From Pseudomonas sp. MM223 (lineage in GTDB: Bacteria; Pseudomonadota; Gammaproteobacteria; Pseudomonadales; Pseudomonadaceae): a stretch of DNA of 64,000 nucleotides. The position numbers and the translations under genes were made by a program. The stretch covers positions 3,331,501 to 3,395,500 of the forward strand of contig OX352322.1 of NCBI GenBank assembly GCA_947090765.1, in the 5' to 3' direction. The notes beneath the pieces are model-generated. The model did no database searches. It saw only the letters and a list, made by a program, of their open reading frames with translations, and was not told the origin of the DNA. This document shows, piece after piece, positions 938-21,692 of the stretch (within the stretch, counting starts at the first letter, position 1; each line of letters opens with the position of its first letter).

Positions 938-1690
938 ATGCCCATGCCCGTTGTTGTACACCGTTGCCTGCCCTGGTTGCTGGCGTTGACGAGCCTGACT
1001 GCATATGCCGAACAGGAAACTCTCGGCGAAACGCCACAACCGATCCGTGTTTTGCTTGCTGCAGAGCTGGAAACCACCCTGTCCAGCCAGATGAACGGCA
1101 CGCTGGGCGAACTCAAGACAACCTTTGGCTCGCATGTGGCCAAGGGTGCCACACTGGCGCGCTTCAACTGCAACGAGGCCCAGGCGCGTGGCAAAGTGGC
1201 CGTGGCCGAACTGGCAATGGCCCGGCAGAACCTGGAAGCCAAGAAGCAGTTGCGCAAGCTCGATGCAGTGGGTGATATCGAGGTAGCGGCAGCCAACACC
1301 GAAGTTCAAAAGGCCGATGGTGCCCGTGCCATGGGCGAGGCGCAGATGAGCTACTGCCAGGTGCTGGCACCGTTCTCAGGGCATGTTGCCAAGGTGTATG
1401 TAAAACCGTATCAAACCGTCAGCGCGGGCACGCCGTTGTTCGACCTGGTCAGCGACGGCGCCTTGAAAGTGCGACTGAACGTGCCTTCAAGCCAGTTGAA
1501 AGGCCTCAGTACCGGCCAGCCATTGGAGGTGGAGGTACACGAGACTGGCAAGACCTACCCGGCCAAGGTCAGCGTGATCAACGCCCGGGTCGACGCCGTG
1601 GCGCAGACCGTGGAACTGGAGACGCGCTTCGACCAGCCATTCCCTGAACTGATGGCGGGCATGAGTGGCACGGCGCGGTTTGCACCATGA
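938..1690 (+). CDS. HlyD-family periplasmic adaptor (membrane fusion protein)
   Basis: A 250-residue adaptor starting at the ATG at 938, which has AAGGA 7 bases upstream; an in-frame ATG at 911 lacks a good site. A Sec signal peptide (MPMPVVVHRC to AYA) is followed by a split lipoyl-like domain: the first half around GTLGELKTTFGSHVAKG, a short helical hairpin, and the second half around VLAPFSGHVAKV, then a beta-barrel domain ending PELMAGMSG. It is shorter than RND adaptors such as AcrA (about 400 residues) and contains four Cys residues after the signal, unusual for the family. The stop overlaps the next start as ATGA at 1687-1690, so it is translationally coupled to the next gene. It is the first gene of the five-gene export cluster and presumably bridges inner-membrane partners to the TolC-like protein at 15762. 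Confidence 0.85.
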   Translation: MPMPVVVHRCLPWLLALTSLTAYAEQETLGETPQPIRVLLAAELETTLSSQMNGTLGELKTTFGSHVAKGATLARFNCNEAQARGKVAVAELAMARQNLEAKKQLRKLDAVGDIEVAAANTEVQKADGARAMGEAQMSYCQVLAPFSGHVAKVYVKPYQTVSAGTPLFDLVSDGALKVRLNVPSSQLKGLSTGQPLEVEVHETGKTYPAKVSVINARVDAVAQTVELETRFDQPFPELMAGMSGTARFAP

Positions 1691-3033
1691 CCATGAACCA
1701 GCCGCTGCCGCACCCGCAATTGCTGCTGCAACTGGACGGCCTGCGCGACAAGGCGATGGCCGCCGAGTCGCTGAACGCCCTGGCCTTCAGCATGGCCAAC
1801 GACCTCTATCCGCTGCTGCCCTTTCATCAGGCGCTGGTGTTCAGCCAGGTCAAAGGGGCGCTCGAACTGCTGTGCGTGTCGGGGCTGGCGCGCCCTACCG
1901 AAGATTCGCCTTACCTGGTGTGGCTGAGGCGGGCCAGCCGCTGGCTGGGTGAGCAGGTAAACGGTGAGCAACCCGTGTGGCTGACCGTGGCCGAAACGTC
2001 GCCCCCAGCCGATATCGCCGAGGGCTGGGCCGAGTGGTGGCCCGCAGGGCTCTGGTGCATCCCGCTGCATGCGCCAACCGGCGCGCGTTTGGGCTTGTTG
2101 GTATTGCTCCTCGAAGAAGCGCCACCTGCGGCGCTGCCCCAACACCTCAACGGTCTGACCCGCACCTGGGCCTATTGCTGGAATGCGCTCACTCGCCGCC
2201 AGCGCCTGAGCCGCTGGCGACCGAGCCGCCGCCAGGTGCTGCTTACCCTGTTGCTGCTCGGCGGCTTGCTGCTGGTGCCCGTACGCCAGACGGCGCTGGC
2301 CCCCGCACAAATCGTTTCGCGCCAGGCGCAAATCGTCACCTCGCCCATCGACGGCGTGATCGCTCAAGTGCTGGTACGCCCCAATCAGCCGGTCGTGGTT
2401 GGCACTCCCCTGTTCACCCTGGACGAAACCACCCTGCGCAGCCGGGCCGATGTGCTGGGCAAAGAAGTGGCGGTGGCCGATGCCGAACTGCTCGCCGCCA
2501 GCCAGCGGGCCTTCGACAACCCGCAAAGCAAAGGCGAGCTGACCCTGCTGCAAGGCCGGGTGGAGCAACGCCGTGCCGAGCTCGCCGCCGTACAGGCGCA
2601 GCTCAAGCGCACCCAGGTGCTGGCACCGCGGGCAGGCGTGGCGGTGTTCAGTGACCCCAATGACTGGCTGGGCAAGCCCGTGTCCACCGGCGAGCGCATC
2701 ATGCAGGTGGCCGACCCTGCGCAGCCAGCAATGCAGATCCAGCTGGCGGTGGCCGATGCCATCGCACTGGAGCCCGGTGCAGAGGTCACGCTGTTTCTCA
2801 CTGCCTACCCGCTCAGCCCGCTCAAGGGCACGATCCTGGAAACCAGCTACCAGGCCAAGCCAAGCGATGACGGCGTGGTGGCCTATCGCCTGCTGGCCAG
2901 CATCGACGCCCAGCCCGAGCATGCTCGCCTGGGCCTGCATGGCACGGCCAAGCTGTATGGTGGCCGGGTGATGCTCGGGTATTACCTGCTGCGGCGGCCA
3001 CTGGCCACCTTGCGCGCCTGGAGTGGCTGGTGA
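1687..3033 (+). CDS. Inner-membrane HlyD-like protein with N-terminal GAF-like domain
   Basis: A 448-residue protein. Residues 1 to about 175 form a soluble region resembling a GAF domain (a short alpha/beta domain containing WCIPLHAPTGARLGLLVLLL, with its core strands). A single transmembrane helix follows (about residues 183-202, QVLLTLLLLGGLLLVPV). The rest is HlyD-like: a lipoyl half at SPIDGVIAQVLVRPNQPV, a coiled-coil hairpin (about 255-315), a second half at VLAPRAGVAVF, and a barrel. The predicted topology is a cytoplasmic GAF-like domain with a periplasmic adaptor. GAF domains often bind small ligands, so it might gate export, but this is inference. It starts in an ATGA overlap and ends in a TGATG overlap with the M50 gene, so the three genes are tightly coupled. 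Confidence 0.8.
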   Translation: MTMNQPLPHPQLLLQLDGLRDKAMAAESLNALAFSMANDLYPLLPFHQALVFSQVKGALELLCVSGLARPTEDSPYLVWLRRASRWLGEQVNGEQPVWLTVAETSPPADIAEGWAEWWPAGLWCIPLHAPTGARLGLLVLLLEEAPPAALPQHLNGLTRTWAYCWNALTRRQRLSRWRPSRRQVLLTLLLLGGLLLVPVRQTALAPAQIVSRQAQIVTSPIDGVIAQVLVRPNQPVVVGTPLFTLDETTLRSRADVLGKEVAVADAELLAASQRAFDNPQSKGELTLLQGRVEQRRAELAAVQAQLKRTQVLAPRAGVAVFSDPNDWLGKPVSTGERIMQVADPAQPAMQIQLAVADAIALEPGAEVTLFLTAYPLSPLKGTILETSYQAKPSDDGVVAYRLLASIDAQPEHARLGLHGTAKLYGGRVMLGYYLLRRPLATLRAWSGW

Positions 3034-5123
3034 TGCTCGACCCTGCCGACCTGCCCCTGCCACCCCTGCGCGAAGACTTGCGCCTGTGCGATGCCGCCGA
3101 CAACCGCGACGGCGAGCCGGGGTGGATGATCCACGACACGGTGGTCAACCGCTTCTACCGCATCGGCTGGCTGGAATTCGAATGCCTGTTGCGCTGGGGT
3201 CAATCACCCCGGCAGATCAGCCAGCAGGTAGCACGCGACAGTGCGCTGAAGCCCGATGTGGACCAGGTGCTGGAGCTGCGGGCGTTTCTTGAACACCATC
3301 ACCTGCTGCGTGCCGGGCCCGAGCAACTGGGCAAGCTGCAGGCGCAGAGCGAGGCGCGAACCTGGTCAAGCTGGCGTTGGTGGCTGCACCACTACCTGTT
3401 TTTCCGCGTTCCTCTGCTGCGCCCGCAAGTGGGCTTGCAGCGCCTGGCCGCCGCCCTGGGCTGGCTGTTCCATCCGCTGACCGGCCTGCTGGTGATTGGC
3501 CTGAGCCTGCTGGGTATCCTGCTGGTTATCCAGCAGTGGGACAGTTTTACCCATGCCGTGGTGGAATCGTTCTCTACCGAAGGCCTGCTCAGCTTTGCCC
3601 TCGCACTGATCGTGGCAAAAACGTTGCATGAGCTGGGCCATGCCTTGGTCGCCACACGCCTGGGCTTGCGTGTGGGGCACATGGGGGTCGCCTTCCTGGT
3701 GCTGTGGCCAATGCTGTACACCGACACCGGCGAAAGCTGGAAGCTCAAGCATTCGCGCCAGCGGTTGGCGATTGCCTCGGCGGGCATCGCCACCGAGTTG
3801 TCCCTTGCGGGGCTGGCGACCCTGGGCTGGGCCCTGTGCGACGACGGCGCGTTACGCAATGCGCTGTTGTACCTGGCCACCACCAGCTGGGTGCTGTCCC
3901 TGGCCCTGAACGCCAGCCCCTTCATGCGCTTCGATGGCTATTTCATACTCAGCGACCTGCTGGACTTCCCCAACCTGCATGAACGCGCCTCGGCACTGGC
4001 GCGGGTGGCCCTGCGACGCAACCTGCTGGGGCTGCAGGAACCCTGGCCAGAGCATTTCCCCAGCAGCCAGCGGCGCATGCTGGTGGCCTTTGCCTTTGCC
4101 ACCTGGTTGTACCGGCTGGTGTTGTTCCTCGGGATCGCCGTGGCGGTGTACCTGTTCTTCTTCAAGCTGTTGGGGATCGTACTGTTCATGGTCGAAATCG
4201 CCTGGTTTATCGCCCTGCCGGTCAAACGCGAGCTGAGCCACTGGTGGCAACGCCGTAAACACATACCGGGCCGGCGCAAACAGCTGCTCTTGCTGTGCCT
4301 GGGCTTGGCTGTGCTTGCGTTGGCCATCCCGTGGCACAGCCAGGTGGATGCCGTTGGCGTGGCCCGTGCCGAACACCAACTGCGGGTGTACACGCCTTAC
4401 CCGGCGCGCCTGCAAAGCCTGCGTGAGCAAGGCCAGGTCAAGGCCGGCGAGGTATTGGCGACACTGGACGAGCCGGACCTGGACTCACGCCTGCGCAGCA
4501 GCGAGGCCACCGCCCGCAGCTACCAGGCGCGCCTGTCGGGCCTGCTGGCCGACCCGGCCGGGCTGAGCGTTGATGCCGCCACCCAGCAACGCCTGAACGT
4601 GCAGAACGAAGAAGCCCGCTCGGCGCGTGTAGAGATCGCCCGCCTGAACCTTCAGGCCCCCTTTGCTGGCACCTGGCTGGACAGCGACCCGGACTGGCGC
4701 CCCGGCCAGTGGGTCAACCGCCAGGAGTTGCTGGGCATCCTCATCGACCCCAGCCGCTGGCAGGTCGACGCCTATGTGGCCCAGGACCAGGTACACCACC
4801 TGGCCGTGGGCAACACCGTTCGCTTCTACCCTGACGGCCAGGTAACAGCGTTACAAGGCAAAGTGCTGGCCATCGGCAGTACCCGCGCCAATCAATTGGC
4901 CCACCGCATGCTGTCGTCTCACTTTGGCGGGCCGGTACCCACGGGGAACCAGCCCTTGGTGCCAACCCAGCCGGTGTTCCAGGTGCTGATAGCACTGGAC
5001 GCGCCGCTGGTCAGCGTGCACGAGACACGCGGCAGGCTGAAGATCAATGGCGAGCGGCGCAGCGTGCTGGGCGAAATGAGCCGCTGGTTGGTGGGGGTAG
5101 CGTTGTGTGAGAGTGGATTCTGA
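3033..5123 (+). CDS. M50 (site-2) metalloprotease with PqqD-like N-terminus and C-terminal HlyD domain
   Basis: A 696-residue multi-domain membrane protein. Residues about 25-95 resemble a PqqD-type winged-helix peptide-binding domain (WMIHDTVVNRFYRIG). A polytopic M50 domain follows: HELGH at about 199-203 supplies the zinc ligands and catalytic Glu, and NASPFMRFDGYF with Asp at about 301 matches the S2P Asn-x-x-Pro...Asp-Gly motif, so the active site looks intact. After the last transmembrane helix (about 410-430), residues about 440-690 form a HlyD-like adaptor (two lipoyl halves, coiled coil, barrel). The start is the ATG in a TGATG overlap with the previous gene; a GTG sits 3 bases earlier. 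M50 enzymes normally cut within membranes, but with PqqD and HlyD parts this one may process or translocate the giant protein encoded next. That role is inference. Confidence 0.88.
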   Translation: MLDPADLPLPPLREDLRLCDAADNRDGEPGWMIHDTVVNRFYRIGWLEFECLLRWGQSPRQISQQVARDSALKPDVDQVLELRAFLEHHHLLRAGPEQLGKLQAQSEARTWSSWRWWLHHYLFFRVPLLRPQVGLQRLAAALGWLFHPLTGLLVIGLSLLGILLVIQQWDSFTHAVVESFSTEGLLSFALALIVAKTLHELGHALVATRLGLRVGHMGVAFLVLWPMLYTDTGESWKLKHSRQRLAIASAGIATELSLAGLATLGWALCDDGALRNALLYLATTSWVLSLALNASPFMRFDGYFILSDLLDFPNLHERASALARVALRRNLLGLQEPWPEHFPSSQRRMLVAFAFATWLYRLVLFLGIAVAVYLFFFKLLGIVLFMVEIAWFIALPVKRELSHWWQRRKHIPGRRKQLLLLCLGLAVLALAIPWHSQVDAVGVARAEHQLRVYTPYPARLQSLREQGQVKAGEVLATLDEPDLDSRLRSSEATARSYQARLSGLLADPAGLSVDAATQQRLNVQNEEARSARVEIARLNLQAPFAGTWLDSDPDWRPGQWVNRQELLGILIDPSRWQVDAYVAQDQVHHLAVGNTVRFYPDGQVTALQGKVLAIGSTRANQLAHRMLSSHFGGPVPTGNQPLVPTQPVFQVLIALDAPLVSVHETRGRLKINGERRSVLGEMSRWLVGVALCESGF

Positions 5124-5219
5124 GTTTTAGCGCTGCTTCTCATTGCACCAAAATGGAAATCCGGGACTACGCTTGCTCTACTTCGAAAGTGCATCGTTTT
5201 TCCGAGTAGGTGGGCATAT

Positions 5220-8200
5220 ATGGATATGAAGAGCTTCGCCGCAGCATTGCGCCCTCGGTCGCAGACCCTGGCCCTTGAGCAACGCATCCTGTTCGACGGT
5301 GCCGCCGCTGCGGCCGTCGACCAGCAACACAGCGACCCCAGCCACGTCGAGGCCAAGGATACGGCCCACCCTGCCCCAACCGCCAGCGAGGCGCAGACTG
5401 CCGCCGCACCGGCTGGCCAGCCACGCAACCTGGTGGTGATTGACGCCCGTGTGGAAAACCGCGACCAATTGGCCGCCAACCTGCCTGCGGGTACTACTGC
5501 GTTGGTGGTCGACGCCGGGCAGGACGCCATCGCTGCCATCAGCAACACCCTCGCGCAGCTGGGCAAGGTCGATTCCATCCAGGTGTTCTCCCACGGTGCC
5601 GCTGGCCAGTTCACCTTGGGTAACCAGGTGTTCACCCAGCAGACTGTCGAGCAGTTGGGGGACCGCCTCAGCGCCTGGCGCAGCGAGCTCAACCAGGGGG
5701 CCGACATCCAGCTGTATGGCTGCGACGTGGGCGCCGGCAGCAGTGGCCAGGCACTGGTCAACGAGCTGGCACGCTGGACGGGGGCCGACGTCGGCGCCTC
5801 CAGCAACGCCACCGGCAGCCAACTGGCCGGCGGAGACTGGCGCCTGGAGGTCAGCAATGGCGACGTGGACAAATCCATCGCCCTTGCAGCCTCCACCCTG
5901 GCCAGTTTCCAGGGCCTGCTGGCCGATGCCAGCCCCACTGCCGGCCTGAGCGGTGGCGCCGAGGTGCAGCTGGGCGAGCAGTTCACCTTCACCGTCAGTT
6001 TCACCAACCCCTCGACCCAGGAAGGCTACGCGCCGTACATCGACTTGTTCATGCCTGCCACCGGGCGCGACGGCGATGACGGCGCCAGCTTCGTCTCCGC
6101 CACTTACCTGGGGCGGGCGGTGAACAGTTTTGTGATCACCTTCGACGCCAGCGGCAACGCCACGCACCCCCTGGCCAAGGACGCCAGCGGCAATGCCCTG
6201 GTGATCAATGCCGCCAGCGTGGGCATGAAACCGGGCGACCAGATGGTGGTGCTGCAATTGCCCTACGCCAGTGTTACCAACGGGCAGCCCAGCATCGACA
6301 TCCAGATCACCGGCCTGCTCAGCAACCTGGCCGATACCACCTATTCCGACGGTGCGCCCAACCTCACCATCAACGCCCGCGCCGGCTTCGAATACGGTAA
6401 CGACTCACTGAACAACCCGGTGCAGGACCCAAGCCTGGTGGAAGCTTCGCTGCACAGCTTCATCATCACCCCGACCCTGCTCAAGGTTACGCAAACGGTC
6501 AACATGCCTGAAGGCGAGACCGTAACCGGCCCCAATTATACCCGTACCCAGACCGTTACCGTGACCCCGGCACCCGGGCAGACCCTGACCAACGTCACCG
6601 TCACCCAGACCGTGCCGGACCAGGTGCACGTCAGCGCCATCACCCCGGGCCCAGGCGGCACCCTCACCTCTGTGACCCTGCACGATGGCCGGGTACTCAC
6701 CAACCCTGCCGCCATCGCGGCGGCGCTGGCCAACCCCAACGTGTTCGTGGACAGCTACAGCATTCACTACGACACCCTCAGCGGCGCCAGCGAAACCCAG
6801 GTCAGCTTCTACGTGCCGGAAATTGACGCCAACGGCTCCCCCGTACTCGACCCGGCTACCGGTAACCCGGTCACCATCAATTTCGGCACCGCCAGCGTCA
6901 CCGGCGACTGGAACCCGCTGGACCCTCGCGACCGCCCCACCGATCCGGACGGTTACCCGTTCAGCGAAACCGGCAATGGCCAGGGCGTCACGTTTGTGGC
7001 CAAGTCCATTACCCTGCTGAAGGCGGTAAACCTGCAGAACGATGTCGGTACCCCCGGCCTTACCCCCGGCGACACCCTGCGCTACACCATGGACGTGGCC
7101 ATTTCCGACTTCTTCGCCTTTGGCGAGAACATCCTCGAGCAAGGCCAGTTCACCGTGACCGACCTGCTCAGCGACGGCCAGACATTCAGCGCAGGCGTTG
7201 CCCCGACCCTGCTGCTGCAGGGCAATGGTACTTCGCTGAGCATTGCCCTGATCTTCACCCAGGCCGTCAACGCCAATGGCAGCACCACACTGGTGTTCGA
7301 CATTGCCGAATCCATCCGCCGGGCAGTGGCTGGCCCAGGCGTGGCCGCGCTGTTTGGCGACCTGTACGACGACACCGAGCAAAATGGCGCCACCGGCCTG
7401 CGCATCGTCTACGACGCCACGGTCGACACCACCTACACCACCGATCACCCGCCCCACGACCAACTCAACGAAGGCGACAGTGTGGGCAACAACGCCACGG
7501 TGGCCGCCACCGTGCTGCGCGATGCGCTCAACATCGGTGGCACCCAGACTGACGGCTCCAGCACCACCAGCACTATCCAGACCTCCAACGTGGATATCGA
7601 GCTGACCGAGGTGAACAATGGCGCACCGCCGAGCAATGGCGAACTGCGCCCGGGCGACGTGGTGACGTTCACCATCACCTACGACCTGCTGGTGGCCGAC
7701 TACGAAAACTTCAAGCTCATCGCCTACCTGCCGCTGCCATTGCTTAACACCGCCGGCATCACCTGGAGTGTCGGTGATGGTGTGGGCCAGTGGAGCTTCG
7801 GCAGCGGCAACAACATTCTCGATACACCTGACAGTGTCACCACCGGCCCTGGCAACTCCATCGTCTTCGACTTCGGCAACTTCGTTTCTGGTGGCTTGAA
7901 CGGTGGCACCGTGCAGGTGCAGTTCACCATGGTGGTGGGCGACCAGCCATTTGCCGACCAGCGTGAACTGGACGTGCTGGCACAATCGAGCCAGACCACC
8001 ACGGTGGACAAGGACGTGCTGGTGTCCTCCGATGTGGCGGTGATCGAATCGGTCGCCGAACCGGTGCTGGACATCAAGCATGGCGTGGTATCCAGCAGTA
8101 ATGGCACCGTCACCGGCACCACCGGTAGCTGGAACGCCCCCGGCACCACTGGTGTGCCGTTCAACGGCAGTGTCACCAGCCTGGCGGCGGTTGATGGCAA

Positions 8201-11200
8201 CGTCAGCGGTATTGATGGCGCCGACACCCTGCGCCTGGCCACGGCCATCAAAAACACCGGTGGCGGCGGTGCCTACGACGTCAGCACCAGCGTTACCCTG
8301 CCCAATGGCCTGGCTTTCGTCGGCGGTAGCCTGGCTGCCGCCAACCTGCAGATCTTCCGCGGCGATGGCACGCAACTGGTGCTGGGCACCGACTATAGCG
8401 TCAGCGGCAATACCATCACCTTCCTCGACGCCAATGGCCAGGCCACCCTGCTGGCCGGCCGCGCGGGTACTGCCAGCGACCTGTCTGGCGCCAACGTGGT
8501 GGTGATCGCCTACGACGTCACCGTGAACGACGCGATTCTCGCCTCAAGCACGCTGCAAAGCAGCGCGGCACTGACCAACTACGCCAGCGTCAACGGTGGC
8601 CAGGACTTTACCCCCACCGACCTGGTGGAAGTTGCCAACCAGCAAGTGGCAGCACCGACCATCACCAAAACCTACCAGAACGGTAGCCTCAGCGACGACG
8701 ACTCAAGTGCCACGCACACCACCGGCAGCAATCTGGTGATTGGCGAAAGCATGACGTACGACATCGTGGTCAACCTGCCCGAAGGCTTCACCGGCAGCCT
8801 GCGCATCAACGACCTGATCCCGCCCGGCTTGCGCCTGGACCCGCGCTTCAATGGCAATCAGGGCTTCCAGATCATCACCACGTTGGCTGGCAGCGCGGCG
8901 TTGGGCGCGGACTTCAACGGCACCCTGAACGTCAACCCGGTGACCCTGGACGGCAGCGACGGTGCCGACCTGATGCTGGTGTTCAGCACCGCAGGTTCGA
9001 CCGCCGACAACATCACCGACAACAACAGTTTCGTCATTCGCCTGGTGCTGGTGGCCAGCAACGTGCCCGGCAACCAGCAAGGCACCACCCTTAGCAACCG
9101 CGCGCAACTGGTGTACAGCGACCCCGATGGCGACACGCCCAATGGCAGCGCGCCGGTCGAACGTAGCGTGGTCAGTGCCCAGCAGCCAGCGGTGACCATC
9201 GTCGAGCCGACCCTGACCGTTACCCAGCAAATCACCTCGACGCCAGTATTCGGCGGTTACGAAGACGGCGATGTGGTTGAATTCGAGATCGTCATCAGCA
9301 ATACCTCCGGCGTCAATGCGTTCGACATCAGCCTGCTCGACGGGCTGCCAACCGAACTGAGCAACATCACCCTGACCGGCGTGATTTACAGCGGCGGCGC
9401 CAGCAACAACGGTGTGGCGGATTTCGTCATCCAGGGCGGCCAACTGATCAGCGTGAGCGGGGCCAACATCGACATCGCCAACGGTGGCAGCATCACTCTG
9501 CGCCTCACCGGCACGGTGAATGCCACCGCCGCTGGCGAGGCAGCCTTCCCCAACACGGTGGATGTACGCTGGACCAGCCTGAATGGCACCAACAACACGG
9601 TGGACACCACCAACGGCGAGCGCAGCGGCGAAGACGGCGTGCTCAATGGCGGCGCGCTGAACGATTACCGGGTCACTTCATTGCTGGTGTTCCCGGTCAG
9701 CAACGGCATCCGCATCAGCCGCGTGGGCGGCGTAGCCGACACCGCGCCGGCCACCAACATCAGCGGTGCCACCGACACCAGTGGCGTCAGCGAGAACGTG
9801 GTGGTCGGCGAAATCGTGCGTTACCGCGTGGCGGTGCTGGTGCCCACTGGCGATAACCCCGACTATCAAATCCGCATCGAGCTGGCCGCTGGCCTCGAAT
9901 TCATCCCGGCCAGCCTGAATGACATCCTGCTTGCATTCGTGTCCAACACGCCCTCCGGGCTTATCAGCGATGCCACCAACCTGATCAGTAGTGGCACCCT
10001 GAGCATGCCAGGTAACGAGCTGAGCGATGTGACCCAAGGCATCCGCCCCGACCTGTCCGGCGCAGTGCCCACTGGCGTGTTCGACATCAACAATGGCCGG
10101 CTGGTGATCGTTACCAACGCCAACGGCAGCCAGACGGTGACCTTCAGCCTGGGCAACCTGATCAACAACGAAACCAACGACCCCGATGTCGAAGGTGTGG
10201 TGCTGGAGTTCAACGTGCGGGTCAGCAACGTGGCCAGCAACCAGTCTGGCGCCAACCTCGGGGTGACCGCCCACGAGCACGTCGGCATCAACGGCGGTGT
10301 TGACCGGGGCGTGAGCGACACGGTGTTCGAGCGCGTGGTCGAGCCCAGCTTCACCAACATGGACAAGACCGTGATCGATGTGGCGCCGGGCAGTGGCACC
10401 ACCACCGCTACCGTGTCGGTCAGCTTCACCCAGAATGGCGAGGTACCCGCCTACAACACCCACCTTGCCGACCAGTTCCCCAATGGCAGCAACTACCAGG
10501 TGCAGAGCATACTGCTCAACGGTGTGGCCCTGGACATGGCCAACCTGCCCGCCGGCGTGAGCTTCAGCGATGGCACGAACATTACGGTGGACTTCGACCG
10601 CCTTGCACCGAATGACAATGTACAGGTGGTCTACACCGTCACCCTGCCCAACCAGACTATCGCCGACAACGCCGCCAGCGCTGCGGTGTTGACCTGGACC
10701 AGCCTGCCCACCGACTTTGAAACCAACGGCTGGGGCGGCTCGCTGCCCGGCACGGCGGGTGGTGCCGGCGGCGAGCGTACCGGCCAGGACGGCGCCGTCG
10801 GGCTGAACAACTACATCCTCAGTGACGGCGCCGGCATGGGCGTGATCCAGGGCACGCTGTGGGACGACACCCGTAGCGCTACCAACAGTGTCACCCCCGA
10901 CGGCCCGGGCCTGGACGGCATTGCCGTCACCCTCACCTGGGCAGGCGACGACGGCCAGTTCGGTACCGCCGACGACCGCACATTCAATACCGTTACCGCC
11001 AACGGCGGCCTGTACCAGTTCGCCCTGCTGCCCTCCGGCAGCTATCTGGTGGCCGTGGCACAGAGCCACCAGGCAGGTGCCGACAACAACTTCCGCGTAC
11101 GGGTCGACACCGACACTGCGGCTGCTCTTGCAGGGCTGGGCAGCATCAACCTGAGCCTGGGCGAAGGCAGCACCGGCACCGCCGATGCCGGTTACGTGCA

Positions 11201-14200
11201 CCTGAACGAAGCACCGGTCAACACCATTGTCGACCAGCACGGCCAGGAAGACACCGTGCTGCACCTGACCGGTCTGGCCATCAACGACGTTGACGTCAAC
11301 GCGGGCAATGCCAATGGCGTGATGACCATTACCCTGTCTGTGGTGCACGGGGTGCTTTGGCAAAGCGCCACGCCGCCAGCTGCCAATGCCACCCCGCCAG
11401 CCGGCGCAGGACGCAGCCTGGTGCTTACCGGCACACTGGCCGAACTGAATGCGGCACTGGCGCAGCTTTATTACAAAGGGGATCAGGACTTCAACACCTT
11501 CCGTCAGGCAGAAACCCTGACCATGGTCACCAACGACCAGGGCAACTTCGGTGATCATCCCACCAGCGGCAACGGTATCCCCGGGCAGAACCCAGCTGAC
11601 GCGCTGAGCGACACAGACGTCGTCAACATTGTGATTGACCCGGTGAACGATGCGCCGATTGCCGTAAACGACCAGTACGTCGCCGTGGAAGCCGGTGGCC
11701 TGAACAACGCCGAACCGGGCACCAACCCCACGGGCAATGTGCTGGCCAATGACACCGACGTGGACATCCAGACCAACGACGACGTCCTCACCGTGACGCG
11801 GATCGCCAACGTCAACAACCCGGGCGGCATTGCCGTAGGCGGGACGGTTGTCACCACCATCGACGGGCTTTACGGCACCCTGTTCATTACCGCAACCGGC
11901 GGCTTCCAGTACGTCGTCAACAATGACAACCCCGCCGTGCAAGCGCTGCGTACCTCGGGCGACTTTCTCAGCGAAGTGTTTGCCTACGACATCGTTGACA
12001 GCGGCGGCCTGGGCAGCCGTGCGCAATTGCTGATCAACGTGCATGGTGCCAACGACACGCCCATTGCCCATGGCGATGTGGGCACGGCCATCGAGGCTGG
12101 CGGTACCAATAACGGCACCGCCGGGCAGGACGCCACCGGCAATGTGCTGGACAACGATACCGACGTGGACGCCGTGGCACTGGGTGAGACCAAACAGGTC
12201 AGCGCGGTACGTTACGACGGCCCCGGCGGCGGCAGGATCATCCCGCTCGACACAGGCACAACCAACATACCCACTGCGTTCGGTACCCTCACCCTCAACG
12301 CTGACGGCAGCTACCGTTATGTCATCGACAACAGTAACGCCGCGGTCCAGGCGCTGTCCCCTGGCGATACGCTGGTAGAACAGTTCACCTACCAGATGGT
12401 CGATGCTGGCGGCTTGAGTTCGGTGAGCGTGCTTGTCATCACCATCCAGGGGGCTAACGATGCGCCCGTGGCCGTCGACGACCACAACACTGCCACGGCA
12501 GGTGCCAGCGACGGCAGCCCGGCCCCGACCAACGCCAACGGCAACGTGATCACCGGCAACAATGGCATAGGCGCCGACACCGACGTCGATCGTGCAGACC
12601 AGCCCACCGCCACCCAGCTCAAGGTCGACGGTGTACGCAGTGGCCTTGAAAGCGCAGGCGGTGCGCTCAGTGCAGTCGCCACCGGCGCCCCGGCATCCAT
12701 TGCCGGCACCGTCGCCCGCTTGCCCGACAACAGCCTGATCAGTGGCAACTTCGGCCAGTTGATACTCAACCAAGACGGCACCTACAGCTTCACCGTCAAC
12801 AGCGCCGACCCGACCATTCGTGCCTTGAGTGCCGGGCAGAGTATTGACGTGATCTTCACCTACCAGATTCACGACAGCGGCGGGCTGACAGACCAGGCCC
12901 AGTTGGTAATCACTGTCACCGGTGTAAACGACCCACCCGTGGTGAACCCGGTCACGGTCAATGCGATCGAAGCCGGCGGCCTGAACAACGCCACCCCGGG
13001 CCTAAACCCCAGCGGCAACATCCGTGGTGCCTACAGCGACCCCGAAGGCGACGCCCTGACCATCACCGGCGTCATCAACCCCAGCGGTACCAGCGGTACG
13101 GTGGGCCAGAGCCTGGCCGGCAATTACGGCAGCCTGGTACTCGATGCCCAAGGCAACTACCGCTATGTGGTGGACAACAGCAACAGCGCCGTGCAAGCCC
13201 TGCGCACCGACGCCGACCGGCTCACCGAGGTGTTCCGGTACAGCGTCAGCGATGGCAACGGCAAAACCGTGACTGCCACCTTCACGGTGGTCATCCACGG
13301 CCGCAACGATACCCCGGTTGCCGCCAACGATAGCGCCATCGCCATCGAAGCGGGCGGCACCAACAACGGTACGCCGGGCCAGGCCGGCAGCGGTAACGCC
13401 CTGGCCAATGACCAGGATGTTGACGCTGGCGACAGCAAGACCCTGGACGGTATCTACCTGGGCACCCTCGCGGCGGGCGGCACCTTTGTGCAGGTCAGTG
13501 CTGGCGCCACGGTGATTGCTGGCAACTACGGTACCCTGAGAGTCGATGCCAACGGCAACTACGTGTACACCATCAACGACAGCCTGGCCGCCGTGCAGGC
13601 ACTGAAGGCCGGCGAAAGCCTGACCGAAACCTTCAGCTACCGCATGCACGACACCGTCGGGGCCAGCCACAAGCGCAGATCAACATCACCATCGAAGGCC
13701 GTTACGATGCGCCAGTGGCGCACGACGACCTGGCGTATGCCGTTGCCACCGATGACGATGGCAATGGCGGCCGCAACCCCACCGGCAACGTGCTGAACAA
13801 CGATACCGACGTGGATGCCGGCGACACCAAGACCGTCACTGCCGTGGGCGTGGGCGCCGAGAGCAGCAACCCGAGGCTGGACCCGCTCACCGGCACGTCC
13901 ACTGTCACCACCAACTACGGCACATTGACGCTGAACGCCAACGGCACCTACCAGTTCGTGGTCAACTCCAGCGACCCCGACATCATCGCCCTGGGGCCAT
14001 TGGGCTTTGTCATCCAGCACTTCACCTACCAGGTGACTGACGCCGGCGGCCTGAGCGACACCGCCACCCTGTTCGTGCTGATCCGCGGCGAAAACCAGCC
14101 ACCGGTGGCTGGCCCGGACCAGGGCTTGGCCATCGAGGCCGGTGGCCTGGGCAACAACATTCCCGGCAGCAACCCGTCCGGCAATGTGATGGACAACGAC

Positions 14201-15724
14201 AGCGACCCGGACAGCATCAATATCCTGGTGCCAGAAACCCTTGAGGTGCTGGCCTTCTGGAGCGGCGACGGCCCGCTACCCACGAGCCCGACCCTGACCG
14301 GGCAAACCCTGCGCGGCCAGTATGGCGACCTGACCCTGAACGCCGACGGCACCTGGAGCTACACGCTGGATAACAGCCTCGAAGCCGTGCAGGCCCTGCG
14401 CGTAAGCGGCCAGACCCTGACCGACAACTTCACCTACCTGCTGACCGACCTGTGGGGTGCCACTGCCAATGGCCTGCTGACCATTACCATTGACGGGCGC
14501 AATGATTTCCCCGTGGCCAACGACGACACTGCCAGCGCGGTGGAAGCCGGTGGCGTCAACAATGGCACTGCCGGGGTCGATCCGCGCGGCAACGTGCTGG
14601 ACAACGACACCGATGTGGACGGCACGCAGTACGGCGAAACCAAGACCGTGGTGCAATACACCGGCGAGAACGGCCAGACCGCCAGCGCAGGCCAGATACT
14701 GCAAGGGCTTTACGGCACATTGCTGATCAACGCCGACGGCAGCTACCAGTACGTGGTCGACAACAGCAACCCGACCGTGCAGGCCATGCGCACTGCCGGT
14801 GAAGCGCTGCGCGAGGTGTTCACCTACCGCATGCGCGATACCGCTGGTGTAACCGCCGACGCTCGCCTGACCGTGACCATCCAGGGTGCTAACGACAACC
14901 CGGTTGCCCGCGATGACAGCAATACGGCCAGCGATCAGGTGCAGGCCCCGCAGACCACTGGCAACGTGCTGCCCAACGACAGCGACATAGACGCAGGCGA
15001 CAGCCTGACCGTTACCGGCATTCGCGCCGGACAGGAAGGCGGTACTGGTACCGCAGGCGTGATTGGCCAACCCATCGCCGGCCGCTACGGCACGCTGGTG
15101 CTCAATGCCGATGGCAGCTACACCTACACCATCGACCTCACCAACCCCGAAGTGCTGGCCGCTGCCGGGCTTGGCCAGGTGCTACAGGACTACTTCACCT
15201 ACACGATCAGCGATCTGGCCGGGGCCACTGACCAGGCACAACTGACCATCACCCTGGACATTTCCAGCCCGTACATTCCACCAGGCCCTTACCTTGACCG
15301 CGACAGCCGTGGTGTCCTGGGTTTGCCGGATGTGTCCCCGGCGATCTACGTGGCACCCGTGGTAGAACGGGCCGACCAGGCCTTGACGCTGTCTGCCTGG
15401 GATGCCGACGGCAGTAATGTGCAGCTGTTCGCCACACCCGAAATCGAAAGTGGGTCAGTGGGGGCCGGGCTTGGCCAGGTACATGGCCAGTACGTGGCCC
15501 AGGCGGTGGCCAGCAGCCGCCAGGCCAGCGCCGAAGACAAGAACTGGGTCGATGGCCGCCAGGGGGTCACCAGCCTGACTGCCGACGGTTTGCTGCCAGA
15601 CCCCTCCCTGTGGGCGCCGCTGCCACGCGACATGGTGCCCGCAGAGAAGAACGAACAACCTGCCAAGGGCTTTCGCGCACAACTGCGCGATGCCGCCCAA
15701 CGGCGAGGCAGCAACGCACCATGA
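5220..15724 (+). CDS. Giant DUF4347/VCBS-repeat surface protein with LEPR-XLL-like motif; frame broken near 13660
   Basis: With one base restored this encodes about 3501 residues. Frame 1 is open from 5220 to past 13660, and the homologous continuation is in another frame up to 15724. There is no Sec signal peptide; residues 17-29 (LALEQRILFDGAA) match the LEPR-XLL motif of giant exported proteins. DUF4347 spans about 70-230. Conserved-repeat (DUF11-like) beta domains fill about 235-1870, an SdrD-B-like domain lies at about 1874-1970, a cadherin-like domain at about 1995-2145, then nine VCBS-type repeats of about 130 residues carrying GNVLxNDTDVD. The C-terminus is a basic, non-repetitive tail. 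I see no RTX nonapeptides and no LPXTG. It is probably a surface adhesin or matrix protein and the likely cargo of the flanking HlyD/M50/TolC genes. It lies 96 bases after the M50 gene, with AGGTGGG before the ATG. Confidence 0.85.
11685..15265 (+). repeat. Nine tandem VCBS/Ig-like repeat units in the giant protein
   Basis: Coding repeats with a period of about 380-480 bases begin near 11690, 12090, 12480, 12960, 13345, 13735, 14135, 14540 and 14920. Each unit carries an EAGGxNN stretch, GNVLxNDTDVD, a Gly-Thr-Leu strand with NADGSYxY, a VDNSNxAVQAL helix-like segment, an FTYxMxDxGG segment and an ITIxGxND linker. Units 3, 4 and 9 deviate most. The Asp-rich loops look suited to binding calcium. 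The repeats diverge at DNA level, so slippage between copies is less likely than in identical arrays. Confidence 0.85.
13659..13670 (+). other. Apparent one-base deletion in the giant gene
   Basis: Upstream repeats are read in the frame of 5220. From about 13670 the clear homology (AQINITIEGRYDAPVAHDD) is in the frame of 15724. A run of four G at 13659-13662 is the likeliest site: one more G would give Val-Gly-Gly-Gln-Pro-Gln and rejoin both frames. Read as written, translation leaves the repeat and stops at 13796. Confidence 0.75.
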
Positions 15725-15761
15725 TGCCGATACCTGATCACGGATTGAACAAGGACAGCTT

Positions 15762-17270
15762 ATGCCTGTATCCACGATGAAAAGCCTTAGCACCCTGACT
15801 GCCTTCGGCCTGCTGCTCGGCGCCTGTTCGGCTTTCGAGCCCAAGCCTTACACCGAAGATGAAATGCGCCAGCGGGTGATCGAAGACCAGGCGCGAATGT
15901 ACAAGGAACAGGAGCCGATCAACGGGCCGATCACGTTCTACGAGGCCTCGGCGCGCGCCCTGAAATACAACCTCGACTACCGCCTGAAATTGCTGGAAAG
16001 CGCGCTGGCTTCGGATTTGCGCGACGTGTCCAGCCACGAGATGCTGCCGCGCCTGGTCGCCTCTGCCGGTTATGCCGGGCGCAACAACGACTCCGGTGGT
16101 ACCTCCATCGGTATCGAGGACCGCCAGGTCAGCTTGCGCCCTTCCACCTCCGAAGAGCGCTACCGCACCCTGTACAGCCTGGGCCTGTCCTGGAGCCTGT
16201 TGGACTTTGGCGTTGCCTACTTCCGCACCCAGCAGAAGAACGACCAGATGCTGATGGCCGAAGAACGCCGAGAAAAAGTGGCCCAGAACGTACTGCAGGA
16301 CGTGCGTAACGCCTATTGGCGGGCCCTGGGTGCCCAGCGCCTGCTTCCGGAGGTTGATGGCCTGCTGATGCGCACCCACCGGGCCCTGACCTCTGCCCGT
16401 GAGGCCGAGGGCAAGGGCCTGCTGCCACGGCAGGACATCCTGGCCTACCAGCGCGCCCTGCTCGACTCGGTGTACATGCTCACGGTGCGCCGTCAGGACC
16501 TGGAGTTTGCTCGCGCCGAGTTGGCTGCACTGATGTCACTACCGCCGAACACGCGCATGGTGCTGGCCGACAGCAACGAGCAGCCGTTGCCCCTGCTGAA
16601 CGGCAACCTGGAAAAACTCGAGCGCCTGTCGCTGGAGCACCGCCCGGAAATCATGGAAGAGTGGTACCGCAAGCGCGTAAGCATGAATGACCTGAAAATC
16701 GCCAAGGCCCAATTGTGGCCGAACGTGAGTTTCAACTACGGCTATGAGTACGACTCCAACAAGTACCTGTACAACAGCGACTGGAACCAGACCGGCATCA
16801 ATGTCTCGATGAACCTGCTGCGGTTGTTGCAATACCCGGACATCACCGCCGCCGAACAAAGCCAGGCCAAGACGGACGACATGCGTCGCACGGCGTTGTC
16901 GATGGCCATCCTGACCCAGGTGCGTGTGGGCCTGTTGCGTTACCAGCTTGCCCGCCAGGAAGTGGACTTTGCCGACGAAAGCCTGCGTGTGGACCAGAGC
17001 CTGCTGGACTATGCGCGCTCATCGCGCAGTGTGGCGCTGGGCAGCGAACTTGAACTGATCCGCGCCGAAGGCCGCTTGCTGCTGTCGCGCTACCAGCGAG
17101 AAGCTGCCTACTCCGATGCCCAGGCCGCCTGGGGGCGGTTGTACAACTCGGTCGGGTTCGCGGTGATGCCCAAGGAAATTGAACACCATGATGTAAAAAC
17201 GCTAGCGGGAGAAATTCAGAGAGTGGTCGAGCAGCAGACCCAGAACAACCTCGTGAGCACTACCAAATAA
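15762..17270 (+). CDS. TolC-family outer-membrane lipoprotein
   Basis: A 502-residue outer-membrane factor. The N-terminus has a lipoprotein signal with lipobox LLGAC (Cys at about residue 22). Two long repeats of coiled-coil helices separated by short beta segments follow, as in the TolC fold: SLGLSWSLLDFGVAYF and NVSFNYGYEYDSNKY mark the strands, and paired helices precede each. AAGGA lies 7 bases before the ATG. It follows the giant gene by 37 bases, completing the cluster as the probable exit duct. TolC itself is not a lipoprotein, whereas OprM/NodT-type factors are. The last part (HHDVKTLAGEIQRVVEQQ) is a short helical extension. No pump ATPase gene follows; the next gene is convergent. 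Confidence 0.88.
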   Translation: MPVSTMKSLSTLTAFGLLLGACSAFEPKPYTEDEMRQRVIEDQARMYKEQEPINGPITFYEASARALKYNLDYRLKLLESALASDLRDVSSHEMLPRLVASAGYAGRNNDSGGTSIGIEDRQVSLRPSTSEERYRTLYSLGLSWSLLDFGVAYFRTQQKNDQMLMAEERREKVAQNVLQDVRNAYWRALGAQRLLPEVDGLLMRTHRALTSAREAEGKGLLPRQDILAYQRALLDSVYMLTVRRQDLEFARAELAALMSLPPNTRMVLADSNEQPLPLLNGNLEKLERLSLEHRPEIMEEWYRKRVSMNDLKIAKAQLWPNVSFNYGYEYDSNKYLYNSDWNQTGINVSMNLLRLLQYPDITAAEQSQAKTDDMRRTALSMAILTQVRVGLLRYQLARQEVDFADESLRVDQSLLDYARSSRSVALGSELELIRAEGRLLLSRYQREAAYSDAQAAWGRLYNSVGFAVMPKEIEHHDVKTLAGEIQRVVEQQTQNNLVSTTK

Positions 17271-18355: not shown

Positions 18356-19639
18356 TCAGTCGTGCGGCGGGTTATCCAGGTGGGCCTGGCGGCGGCCCAG
18401 CCAGCCCCCGGTGGCAGCCCAGCCAAGCGCAATCAGCGCGCCAATCAGCATCGCCAATTGCGGGTGCTCACCCATCACGTCCAGCGCACGCTTGACCCAG
18501 CCGCTCAGGGCGTCGCCGCCTCGGTAGACCACGGTGTCTATGAAGTTCTTGGCCTTGTACTTGTCCTCGGCGGGCAGCACGGTGAACAGCATCTCCCGCC
18601 CCGGCCGCACCAACGCGTACTCGCCGGCCCGGCGCACCACCATCACCACCACGAATACCGCAAACACCGGGGCCAGTGCCAGCCACAGCAAACCAGCGGC
18701 CATTACCAGCGGCACAGCCACCAGCAACACCCCAACCCCCAAGCGCCGGGCCAGGCGCCCGGTGAGAAATACCTGAGTAAGAATGGCCAAGGCCTGCACC
18801 ACCGCATCGATCAGGCCGAACACCTGGGTTTGCCGAGTGCGATCAGTGAAGGTTTCGCTGACGATGCGTGCCTGCTCGAAATACAGGAACGTGCTGACGC
18901 TGGCCAGTAACACCACGAACAGGGCAATGCCCAGCAGATACGGGGAACGCAGCACCGCGGTGGCGCCGGCAAACGGATTACCGCCTAACGGCCGCGAACC
19001 CGCGCGCTCGGCCTGTTCTGGCAGTGGGTGGATCACTCGCCAGCGTTGCAGGAACAGGCTGGCACCCATACTGCCCAGCAGAAATGCCCCCGCCAGCATC
19101 AGCAGCCCGGCATGGCCCAGCGGTGCAACAAGCAATGTGCCAAGAATAGGGCCGCTAAGCCCGCCCAGGCTAGCCCCGGCTGCCAGCAGGCCGAACAGCC
19201 GCTTGCCTTGCTCGGTGGAAAACAGGTCGGCGAGCACGCTCCAGGCCAGCGAGATCGTCAGCAAATTGAATACCGACAGCCAGATATAAAAGGCCCTGGC
19301 GGCCCAAAGATCGTCCGGTTTACCGGCAAACAGTGCCGCGAACAGCACCAGGTTGCTGGCAAAGAAGCCGTAGGCCCAAGGTAGGATATGCCTGCGTTGT
19401 ACCTTGGAGGCCAGCAAGCCGAACAACGGCAGGCACGCCAGGGTGGCGATGAAGGTGCCGGTGAACAGCCATTGCAAGTTGTCTACGCCGCCTGCAACCC
19501 CCATGGTTTCACGCACCGGGCGCAGCATGAAGTAACCGGTGAACAGCAGGTAGAACAACAGCAAGCCGGCGATCACTGCCGGCCCCTCGCCGGGCCGAAT
19601 GTTCAGCCCTTGGTCCAGACGCCGCCGCCAGCCTTGCAT
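18356..19639 (-). CDS. MFS-type permease related to NTT/ADP-ATP translocases
   Basis: About 427 residues with 11-12 predicted membrane helices. It carries YFMLRPVRETMG near the first helix and KAKNFIDTVVYRGGDALSGW near the C-terminus, two segments characteristic of the bacterial relatives of the nucleotide transporter (TlcC/NTT) family within the major facilitator fold. The substrate is unknown; free-living bacterial homologues are not known to import ATP. The ATG at 19639 lies only 4 bases after the stop of the aldo/keto reductase, so the two genes are probably cotranscribed. A TTG start at 19651 would overlap it. Confidence 0.75.
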   Translation of the reverse strand: MQGWRRRLDQGLNIRPGEGPAVIAGLLLFYLLFTGYFMLRPVRETMGVAGGVDNLQWLFTGTFIATLACLPLFGLLASKVQRRHILPWAYGFFASNLVLFAALFAGKPDDLWAARAFYIWLSVFNLLTISLAWSVLADLFSTEQGKRLFGLLAAGASLGGLSGPILGTLLVAPLGHAGLLMLAGAFLLGSMGASLFLQRWRVIHPLPEQAERAGSRPLGGNPFAGATAVLRSPYLLGIALFVVLLASVSTFLYFEQARIVSETFTDRTRQTQVFGLIDAVVQALAILTQVFLTGRLARRLGVGVLLVAVPLVMAAGLLWLALAPVFAVFVVVMVVRRAGEYALVRPGREMLFTVLPAEDKYKAKNFIDTVVYRGGDALSGWVKRALDVMGEHPQLAMLIGALIALGWAATGGWLGRRQAHLDNPPHD

Positions 19640-19643
19640 GGTG

Positions 19644-20555
19644 TCAGGCAAACTGCTTGATCAGCGCCTGTTGCTGCGCCTGGGTAAGCATGGGCTCATG
19701 CCCGGCCTTGAGCTGGTCGAGCTGGCGATCGGGCCGACCGGTGGCGGGGATGACGGTGGTCACTGCCGGGTGGCTGATGGCGAACTTGAGAAACAGCTGC
19801 GCCCAGCTGCCAATACCCGCTTCGGCAGCCCAGCTTGGCAAAGCCTGGTCCTTGACCTTGGCGAACAGTCGGCCATCGTCGAAGGCCCGATTGATCAGCA
19901 CCGCAACGCCCTTGTCCTGGCACAGCGGCAGCAGTTCGCGGGCAGCGTCGGGGGCATTGACCGAGTAGTTGATCTGGATGAAGTCCAGCGGCTCACTGCG
20001 CACGATACGGGCAACTTCGTCCTGGCCGCTGTTCAGGTAGTGAGTGATGCCGACATAACGTGTCTTGCCCTGCTGCTTCAGCTCGCGGGCATAGGGCAAT
20101 TGGGTCTGCCAGTCGCGCAGGTTGTGGATCTGCAGCAAATCGACCTTGTCGGTGCGCAGGCTCTTCAGGCTGCCGGCCCATTGCGCTTCGGCGTCGGCCC
20201 GGCTGTTGGCGGCGATCTTGGTGGCAATGAAGCACTGCCGATGCCAGCCACCCTCCTCCAGCAACTGGCCAAGAATGCTGTCGGCACCGCCGTAGTTGGG
20301 CGAGGTGTCGATCACCCGGCCGCCCCCTTCAAAAAACGCCTTGAGCACCGCTTTCAACTGCTGGTACTGGGCCGAGTCGGCTTCTACTTCAAAACTGCCG
20401 GAAGTACCGGCACCGATCACCGGCAATGCTTCACCGGTGGACGGTACCTTGCGTGCCAGCAAACCCGCCGGAGCGGCGGCGTGCAGCCAGGGGCTGGCGG
20501 CAGCCAGCATTCCCAGTGTGGCACCTGCGCGTAGGACGTCACGACGTGCGTACAT
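19644..20555 (-). CDS. Aldo/keto reductase with twin-arginine-like signal
   Basis: A 303-residue protein of the AKR fold. The N-terminus (MYARRDVLRAGATLGMLAAA) has Arg-Arg followed by a hydrophobic stretch ending LHAAA, which resembles a Tat signal and suggests a periplasmic enzyme. Family residues are visible: Asp and Tyr in VIDTSPNYGGAD, Lys in FIATKIAAN, His in LLQIHNLRD, and the phosphate-binding segment VIPATGRPD. GGGAG lies before the ATG. The downstream permease gene is coupled. The substrate cannot be told from the sequence. Periplasmic placement would be odd for an NADPH enzyme unless the cofactor is bound before export. Confidence 0.8.
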   Translation of the reverse strand: MYARRDVLRAGATLGMLAAASPWLHAAAPAGLLARKVPSTGEALPVIGAGTSGSFEVEADSAQYQQLKAVLKAFFEGGGRVIDTSPNYGGADSILGQLLEEGGWHRQCFIATKIAANSRADAEAQWAGSLKSLRTDKVDLLQIHNLRDWQTQLPYARELKQQGKTRYVGITHYLNSGQDEVARIVRSEPLDFIQINYSVNAPDAARELLPLCQDKGVAVLINRAFDDGRLFAKVKDQALPSWAAEAGIGSWAQLFLKFAISHPAVTTVIPATGRPDRQLDQLKAGHEPMLTQAQQQALIKQFA

Positions 20556-20644
20556 GGAAAAGCTCCCGTCATGAATCGGAAACTTTCAAGGCTAGCCGCT
20601 CAATCCTCTGCCGGCAGGCGTTTCTGTATCTGGATGTTTAGTGA

Positions 20645-21508
20645 TCAGCCCCGCAGCAGCGGGCTCAGGTCCACACCTGACTCATCCATCGGCGGGCACC
20701 AGTAATAGCCGCCGGTTAGTGGCCGGCTGAAGCGGTACAAACCGTCGATGATGCCGTCCTCCAGGCCGCTCATGCGCCGCAGCTGCACTTCGAATGCATC
20801 GAAGCTGTGGCCCAGGGCAACGAAGGCCAGGCCCGCGCCACGCTGGTCAGCCCAAGCTACGGAGCGACGGACCATGAATGCCTCCGGTTCAAAGCTTTCC
20901 TGGGCGGTGCGCTTGACGTGTGCCGACTCGGGCGCATCGTCCAGCTCTTCGTTGTCGCTCAGGCGGCGGCCGATGATGTTGTCCTGGTCAGCCTGCGGCA
21001 ATGACTTGAAATACTCCAGGTCATGCTTCCACAGCTGGAACGCGGCAAAGCTGGAGCCATCGCTAGCAATGGCCGCCTGTACGGCGTCTTCGTCCACCGG
21101 GTTTTCGGTGCCGTCTTCGTAGCCCGTCAGGTCATGGCCGCCACGGTGCAGGAAGCCATCGACACTGTCGGCCAGACGCAAGGCCGGTGCCAGCGCCTGT
21201 TCCAGGGCCTGGGCACGCAGCAGCAAGTCGCCGCGCTCGTTACCGCGCAGCCACAGCCACAACGCGTGCTGGGTGCTCGGGTTCTCTACGGCGGCGTCCA
21301 GCAGCGGGAAAGCTCGCAGGCCTGGCACTGCGCGGCCCAGGGCCTTGGCTAGCGGGGCGCCGACACCCAAAATCAGCTGGTCGCCATCGACCTGTGGCAG
21401 CAAGGCATCCAGGGCGGCAGGCAGCGCCTCGGGCGACTGCAGGGAGAAAAACAGGTGACGGGCATGGGCCGGCACCGGGGTGGCAAGCAAGCCTTTCTGG
21501 AACGGCAT
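20645..21508 (-). CDS. DyP-type heme peroxidase
   Basis: A 287-residue dye-decolorising peroxidase, close in length to the YfeX/class B group. The distal Asp motif is present as GYEDGTENP, the proximal heme His is in ESAHVKRT, and the distal Arg is probably the one in FMVRRSVAW or nearby. It has no signal peptide, so it is cytoplasmic or carried as encapsulin cargo. The C-terminus (DESGVDLSPLLRG) does not clearly carry an encapsulin-targeting tag, and no encapsulin gene is adjacent. AGGA lies upstream of the ATG. It is transcribed away from the divergent symporter gene at 21693. Confidence 0.9.
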   Translation of the reverse strand: MPFQKGLLATPVPAHARHLFFSLQSPEALPAALDALLPQVDGDQLILGVGAPLAKALGRAVPGLRAFPLLDAAVENPSTQHALWLWLRGNERGDLLLRAQALEQALAPALRLADSVDGFLHRGGHDLTGYEDGTENPVDEDAVQAAIASDGSSFAAFQLWKHDLEYFKSLPQADQDNIIGRRLSDNEELDDAPESAHVKRTAQESFEPEAFMVRRSVAWADQRGAGLAFVALGHSFDAFEVQLRRMSGLEDGIIDGLYRFSRPLTGGYYWCPPMDESGVDLSPLLRG

Positions 21509-21692
21509 GGCAGGCTAATCCTCGGTAAAAACCGGAATGCTACTGTGCCTGCAGCCCTACTGCAACGCGGCATACAGCCTCGCCAGTTGCTGCGCTTGGT
21601 AACAAACGGTTACCAAGAGCTGGCCCTTTGCGATTAGCTATCAATCCGTGTCGACCTACACTCCTCGAGATCCTTCGCCCGAGAGACTGCCC

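Follow-up and report, generated by a model that had tools for sequence, protein, structure and literature searches.

Several described systems share parts with the locus considered here or with its relatives. The accessory Sec pathway (SecA2/SecY2) serves serine-rich repeat adhesins, M50 (site-2) proteases carry an HExxH motif plus a distal Asp as zinc ligands, and the C80 cysteine peptidase is the autoprocessing domain of some large toxins. The locus lies in a stretch of 64,000 nt from Pseudomonas sp. MM223 (contig OX352322.1, positions 3,331,501-3,395,500, in a genome of 6.73 Mb), to which we refer in its entirety as the window. It encodes an HlyD-type adaptor (P0001), a GAF/HlyD protein (P0002), a fusion of an RRE-type domain, an M50 protease and an HlyD part (P0003; hereafter M50-HlyD), a giant repeat protein in two parts (P0004 and P0005) and a TolC-type lipoprotein (P0006). 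The adaptor and duct of a type I secretion system are both present in this cluster; no ATP-binding cassette (ABC) exporter was found in it.

Judged from sequence comparison, the locus belongs to a conserved four-part machine, with a MacA-like adaptor part in the M50 protein, accompanied by a cargo with conserved ends. It looks like a widespread, previously undescribed machine for the export of giant sticky proteins, and it is very probably dedicated to these giant cargos. As to its overall mechanism, we think it somewhat probable that the cassette is an ABC-free, dedicated export and surface-display machine for giant proteins with Ig-type repeats and a LEPR leader. Literature searches, which covered few subscription papers and no bioRxiv preprints, returned no description of such a system, and none is given in the consulted passages of PMC3482391 and PMC8277102.

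Conservation of the cassette and its cargo

We compared the best 80 of a larger number of matching loci in named genomes, plus further loci, and a class set of 274 genomes, of which 43 are positive for M50-HlyD (E < 1e-7, overlapping residues 1-420, with HlyD-only rows dropped). A tree of 70 M50 domains separates two clades, A (which includes the window) and B, with support of 100/100. Among the 79 loci that have both the short GAF/HlyD protein and M50-HlyD, 66 also have the TolC and HlyD genes, and the order TolC-HlyD-GAF-M50 is found in 62; in 11 of the 13 incomplete loci (all except L048 and L138) a cargo-type open reading frame (ORF) lies in between or a contig end is near. When the other ORFs of 112 M50 loci from both clades were clustered, the giant cargo formed by far the largest family, with members in 64 loci. 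The other clusters listed are for the most part antisense frames of the cargo, scattered neighbours (the next largest in 16 loci, at mixed positions and on mixed strands) and a clade-B SecA. An M50-HlyD homologue at E <= 1e-60 was found in 51 of the 99 Pseudomonas species genomes sampled.

The zinc-ligand motifs of the M50 part are intact in P0003 and its relatives: HELGH occupies residues 200-204 of P0003, and D302 is presumably the third ligand. Among the structure matches listed there is none to the M50 core, and these matches are uninformative on the M50 fold. The predicted N-terminal domain of P0003 matches the RRE-type beta3-alpha3 winged-helix fold and is predicted to be of the leader-binding type; its sequence profile matches are weak (E 0.11 and 0.28) and reach no family cut-off. 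PqqD (PF05402) matched one clade-B protein at E 0.031 only, and matched neither P0003 nor, among the families listed, the 19 A1 members. The predicted GAF domain of P0002 is matched by a GAF fold, and the HlyD parts resemble MacA most closely.

The leader of the window cargo is an FDGA variant that falls just under the cut-off of the LEPR-XLL model (NF012209; 15.8 bits, cut-off 17), on which four relatives score 20.7-30.8 bits. A LEPR-type motif is present in the first 150 residues of 16 of the 19 clade-A giant ORFs that were chosen by composition and have their 5' end within the locus; because L246, one of the 16, had been fetched for its motif, the count without it, 15 of 18, is cleaner. Of the three ORFs that lack the motif, one lies across the cassette from its cargo (L084), one has no start (L159) and the last is P0005, the 3' part of the window cargo. 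As leaders were picked by regular expression, the leader consensus is partly circular, and the composition-chosen ORFs and scans with DNA patterns are the more independent tests. A degenerate DNA pattern of the motif had a match in 39 of 49 genomes (reversed control, 1 of 49); these genomes were accessed through 50 of the 80 loci in named genomes, mostly leaving out loci with the motif already in view. Classification of the leader as a classical signal peptide was rejected, with hydropathy over a 12-residue window exceeding 1.8 in only 8 of 47 leaders, and no transmembrane-like segment was found in the first 300 residues of the window cargo.

At the opposite end, 56 of 64 clade-A cargos carry the motif [FL]xxQ[LVIM] within their last 80 residues, where shuffling predicts 6.5 and internal windows predict 4.1; once similar tails are removed, the count is 46 of 52 (4.9 expected). 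A usable cargo end was available in 64 of the 79 loci; clade B, with few cargo ends, is outside this count. The usual form is SFSEQLRxAAxRL, whose median distance to the stop is 27 residues, and in the window form, FRAQLRDAAQRR, the F stands 17 residues ahead of the stop. No RTX family is among the Pfam matches at E <= 0.01 in P0004 and P0005. The window cargo gene has a single frame change near 13.7 kb, which may be either a true mutation or a sequencing error; the P0004 half keeps the conserved N-terminal features and the P0005 half the C-terminal ones.

Two further cargo loci may be recorded here. A small orphan cargo in G284 (L247, 4917-7915) has both the LEPR leader and an FSEQLRRAA tail, in two overlapping frames; the 20 kb read there contain no cassette gene, and the cassette of this genome lies at L091. 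In a Pseudomonas subtype, M50-HlyD and the cargo are separated by a gene for a PMT_2-type mannosyltransferase (L251:16713-18320), which suggests that this cargo is glycosylated.

Directly behind the leader lies a DUF4347 domain, in which a His is conserved in 27 and a Cys in all 28 of 28 domains. Pfam C80 matches 8 of 21 DUF4347 domains at E <= 1 (best 2.5e-4); the window domain scores 15.3 bits, below the cut-off of 23.8. Together, the conserved residues and the C80 matches suggest that DUF4347 is probably a caspase-like cysteine-protease domain, and it may be self-processing. PDB entry 9qpe includes a protein named for DUF4347. As a defining mark of the cargo the domain was rejected, since the leader occurs without it in L136, L137, L144, L155 and L200.

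The earlier note on the window's sequence had proposed a search for the co-occurrence of M50-HlyD fusions with LEPR-XLL/DUF4347 proteins. For DUF4347 an association was recovered: the domain is over cut-off in 30 of the 274 genomes, 23 of which have M50-HlyD, compared with 20 of the other 244 (P = 6e-16 by Fisher's test). For the leader, the DNA pattern used above, a strict LEPR-FD pattern, was found in 6 of the 274 genomes (control, 2 of 274), five of which have M50-HlyD; most M50-HlyD genomes lack this pattern (see below). Some DUF4347 proteins from genomes without detected M50-HlyD look different: that of L190 begins like a classical signal peptide, and in G249, where no M50-HlyD was detected, the DUF4347 stretch (L195) neighbours one with a LapB-type ABC (L196).

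The inner-membrane step and rival explanations

In clade B, a SecA paralogue follows directly after M50-HlyD, mostly overlapping it on stop-to-stop frames. Within the M50 tree it is confined to this clade, where 17 of 21 rows have it, and in the cluster listing no other extra family was seen to be conserved in clade-B loci. The SecA of L056 matches PF07517 (6e-99), P-loop_SecA and SecA_PP_bind, as well as solved structures of SecA (lowest E 2e-124). Across 16 aligned paralogues the DEAD box is invariant, Walker A reads GEGK in 14 and GSGK in two, and MAGRGTDI is kept. A profile of the paralogue was searched over the 274 genomes, with up to four candidates scored per genome and the sorted scores followed far below the gap; in 16 genomes it found 17 matches scoring 794 bits or more, and the next best reached 631 bits (frames of housekeeping length). 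The association with M50-HlyD has P = 9e-15: each of these genomes carries M50-HlyD, and 16 of the 17 matches adjoin it, the exception (G081:C8, L242) lying 1.8 kb from a contig end. Both clades occur together in two genomes, G292 (Achromobacter pestifer) and G296. A divergent SecA stands beside the M50 gene in G060 (L069), outside the 17 matches. One SecA match, in G044 (C1:2262362), lies inside a reported open frame of 24,580 residues, an oddity of either the genome or the record. No dedicated SecA was found in clade-A loci, and the window genome has a housekeeping SecA at 5.60 Mb only, plus a weak match below the cut-off.

These results bear out the earlier note in part and change the picture drawn in it, which had placed an M50 core in the position of the missing pump and had the cargo perhaps targeted independently of Sec. 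Its observation that the cluster lacks an ABC gene held up, as did the association of an ABC-free cassette with giant LEPR proteins, and recognition and cleavage of the cargo by the M50 protein agree with the RRE fold match, for all its weak sequence support, and with the intact zinc ligands. Sec-independent targeting is not supported: the sister clade has a SecA paralogue coupled to the M50 gene, and an M50 protein acting instead of the pump is therefore too strong a claim. It is more likely that the M50 protein is a receptor and processing protease beside a Sec-type motor, and the cluster as a whole looks most like a hybrid of RRE recognition, M50 processing, a Sec-type motor and an HlyD/TolC conduit.

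In the mechanism that we propose, the RRE domain would bind the N-terminal leader, in the manner of RiPP (ribosomally synthesized and post-translationally modified peptide) leader-binding domains, and a SecA-type motor, dedicated in clade B and housekeeping in clade A, would drive the unfolded chain across the inner membrane. The M50 protease would cleave within or beside the run of small residues that follows FDG, freeing the leader, and the three HlyD-type proteins would bridge the inner-membrane side to the TolC lipoprotein. The GAF domain may gate or sense, the C-terminal FSxQLxxAA may be a second recognition or retention signal, and the C80-like DUF4347 may process the cargo itself. More tentatively, and with some doubt on our part, this could amount to a new Gram-negative secretion class, in which selection by RRE-M50-HlyD, a push by SecA, an inner-membrane channel and a continuous HlyD/TolC passage do without any ABC, RND (resistance-nodulation-division) or MFS (major facilitator superfamily) pump.

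A number of observations weigh against this mechanism. Four of the 21 clade-B rows have no adjacent SecA, an energy source belonging to clade A itself is not visible, and no SecY paralogue was noticed near the SecA genes, for which neither a SecY profile nor an aimed search was run. M50-HlyD went undetected in seven of the 30 DUF4347 genomes, and of these seven only G245, itself one of the six genomes positive for the strict pattern, yielded a LEPR leader; within the class set, that pattern is absent from 38 of the 43 genomes that have M50-HlyD. P0005 scores 214.4 bits against the large-adhesin model NF045619 (BapA/Bap/LapF; cut-off 180, P0004 scoring 150.4), and known members of this group are type I cargos. 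Because the window cargo is frame-shifted, the window strain may make a truncated product without the C-terminal motif, and hence may not display it. Finally, other transporters lie near some cassettes. In L251, of the second Pseudomonas subtype, a LysR/EmrB/EmrA/NodT-type MFS efflux operon is found directly upstream; matching HlyD and TolC-type genes lie upstream in L250, L252 and L253, the pump and regulator being typed in L251 only. L250 also has a LapB-type ABC, 13.8 kb upstream, and the L253 stretch ends at a matching adaptor gene; neither the operon nor a LapB-type ABC is seen in the 20 kb read in L254 and L257.

An unlikely alternative is that the general Sec route takes the cargo across the inner membrane and that the M50, HlyD and TolC proteins act only afterwards, to move or release the chain in the periplasm. 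Such a two-step path would fit the coupling of clade-B SecA to M50 and the MacA-like HlyD parts, and PMC8277102 describes a MacB-type pump acting after the Sec step, for MacAB with heat-stable toxins. However, the window cassette contains neither MacB nor another pump, such cassettes do not regularly include an ABC exporter, the cargo N-termini lack a classical signal peptide, and the pairing of RRE with M50 suggests recognition of the leader from the cytoplasmic or membrane side.

Also quite unlikely is a retention switch of the LapA/LapG kind, with the M50 protein regulating or releasing an inner-membrane-anchored cargo and taking no part in translocation. M50 proteases typically cleave membrane segments, the GAF domain suggests sensing and the C-terminal motif might serve for retention, but no other translocator is prominent among the conserved neighbours, and SecA is coupled to M50 in clade B.

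We regard as very unlikely an ordinary type I system whose ABC, for example LapB, is supplied in trans, the M50 protein being an accessory protease only. The T1SS-like HlyD and TolC-type parts, the resemblance of the cargo repeats to those of type I adhesins and the LapB-type gene in L250 all fit this reading, as do two LapB-type ABCs encoded at 183 kb and 1118 kb in the window genome; however, each of the two has its own adaptor genes and large repeat-like ORFs beside it, and the cargo has no RTX match. We scored 16 candidates per genome in 57 genomes with a window-like M50-HlyD (in G116, G123, G194 and G235 the M50-HlyD gene alone was seen, not the whole cassette). A LapB-type ABC is over cut-off in only 23 of these, and although 36 have some T1SS-like ABC at E <= 1e-120, 21 have none, among them three in which the machine set is full, namely G224 (a single contig, 100% complete) and the 100% complete drafts G162 and G119. 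The full cassettes without an ABC match suggest that a T1SS-type ABC is not generally needed, and the necessity of a dedicated ABC ATPase elsewhere appears disfavoured. Across 113 M50 loci, queried with two LapB-type exporters and two further ABC proteins, no LapB-type ABC was found, and 12 loci contain any ABC ORF at all (14 ORFs, best 105 bits). In two loci with LExRVVLDAA-type cargos upstream, an ABC ATPase gene begins 78 (L054) and 48 (L063) bases after M50-HlyD. Its candidacy as a part of the operon was rejected, the L054 protein having an ABC-F make-up (two ABC_tran stretches, ABC_tran_Xtn and CTD); that of L063 falls in the same BLAST cluster and was not Pfam-typed.

Hardly credible is a signalling or RiPP-type peptide module with the giant gene as a frequent neighbour and not a substrate: the RRE fold is typical of RiPP enzymes and the NCBIfam model closest to P0003 is that of the daptide M50 protease (NF041824; 167.9 bits, below the cut-off of 300), but DUF4347 and M50-HlyD co-occur across the class set, the giant cargo is the top non-machine neighbour, and its conserved ends go with the cassette, both motifs being kept even in the orphan cargo of G284.

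If the proposed SecA-driven, ABC-free export is correct, it adds a secretion route that joins a Sec motor, RiPP-style leader recognition and an HlyD/TolC conduit, which are usually treated separately, and it would account for the exit of giant LEPR-XLL/DUF4347 surface proteins from cells without a T1SS-type ABC. The leader, the C-terminal motif, the active site and the motor gene are all defined, so that clear tests are possible.

Organization of the window cluster

The genes for P0001, P0002 and P0003 overlap successively by four bases, and P0001 has an alternative start at 938. P0002 consists of the GAF domain (residues ~5-175), one transmembrane-like segment (residues 181-205) and the HlyD-type part. 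A promoter scan gave no result, and terminators were found at chance level only. Further genes in the window, at 18356-25829, encode an MFS transporter, an aldo/keto reductase, a Dyp-type peroxidase, an MgtC-family protein and a KfrA-type DNA-binding protein, and are apparently unrelated to the cassette.

Table 1. Genes and domain of the cassette, with coordinates in the window
Feature	Position	Strand	Support
P0001, periplasmic HlyD/RND-type adaptor, 259 aa	911..1690	+	TIGR01730 122 bits, over cut-off; HlyD_3
P0002, GAF + HlyD-type periplasmic part, 448 aa	1687..3033	+	
P0003, RRE(PqqD-like)-M50 intramembrane protease-HlyD fusion (predicted), 697 aa	3030..5123	+	
P0004, giant cargo, 5' part: leader ALEQRILFDGAAAAAV, C80-like DUF4347, isopeptide/VCBS/cadherin repeats	5220..13796	+	
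C80-like DUF4347 domain of P0004, aa 71-234	5427-5924	+	weak C80 similarity
P0005, giant cargo, 3' part, other frame (open from 13424): cadherin/VCBS repeats, C-terminal FRAQLRDAAQRR	13715..15724	+	
P0006, TolC-type outer-membrane lipoprotein, 502 aa	15762..17270	+	PF02321 133 bits; lipobox in sequence

Comparison with known systems

With type I secretion (HlyBD-TolC, LapBCE/LapA) the cassette shares HlyD-type adaptors, a TolC-type duct and a giant repeat adhesin as cargo; it differs in having no ABC exporter, in its RRE-M50 fusion and GAF-bearing adaptor, and in a cargo marked by an N-terminal leader and a new C-terminal motif in place of RTX matches. Clade B resembles accessory Sec in its dedicated SecA paralogue beside a giant-repeat-protein cassette, whereas the cassette is found in Gram-negative hosts, with HlyD/TolC-type parts and an M50-RRE fusion; the window clade has no dedicated SecA, and no SecY2 was noticed near the clade-B SecA, where no SecY profile was run. 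From MacAB-TolC the cassette differs by the absence of MacB. The M50 proteases of RiPP pathways with RRE/PqqD domains (daptide HExxH, YydH/LiaK) likewise join an RRE-type fold to an M50 protease, but P0003 is fused to an HlyD adaptor, has giant-protein neighbours and scores below the NCBIfam cut-offs. Compared with the C80 peptidase, the window DUF4347 sits just behind an export-type leader and scores below the family cut-off. The window cargo has a leader and a DUF4347 domain like those of the LEPR-XLL (NF012209)/DUF4347 proteins; within the literature searched, these have until now been sequence labels only, and here they are tied to an export-type cassette.

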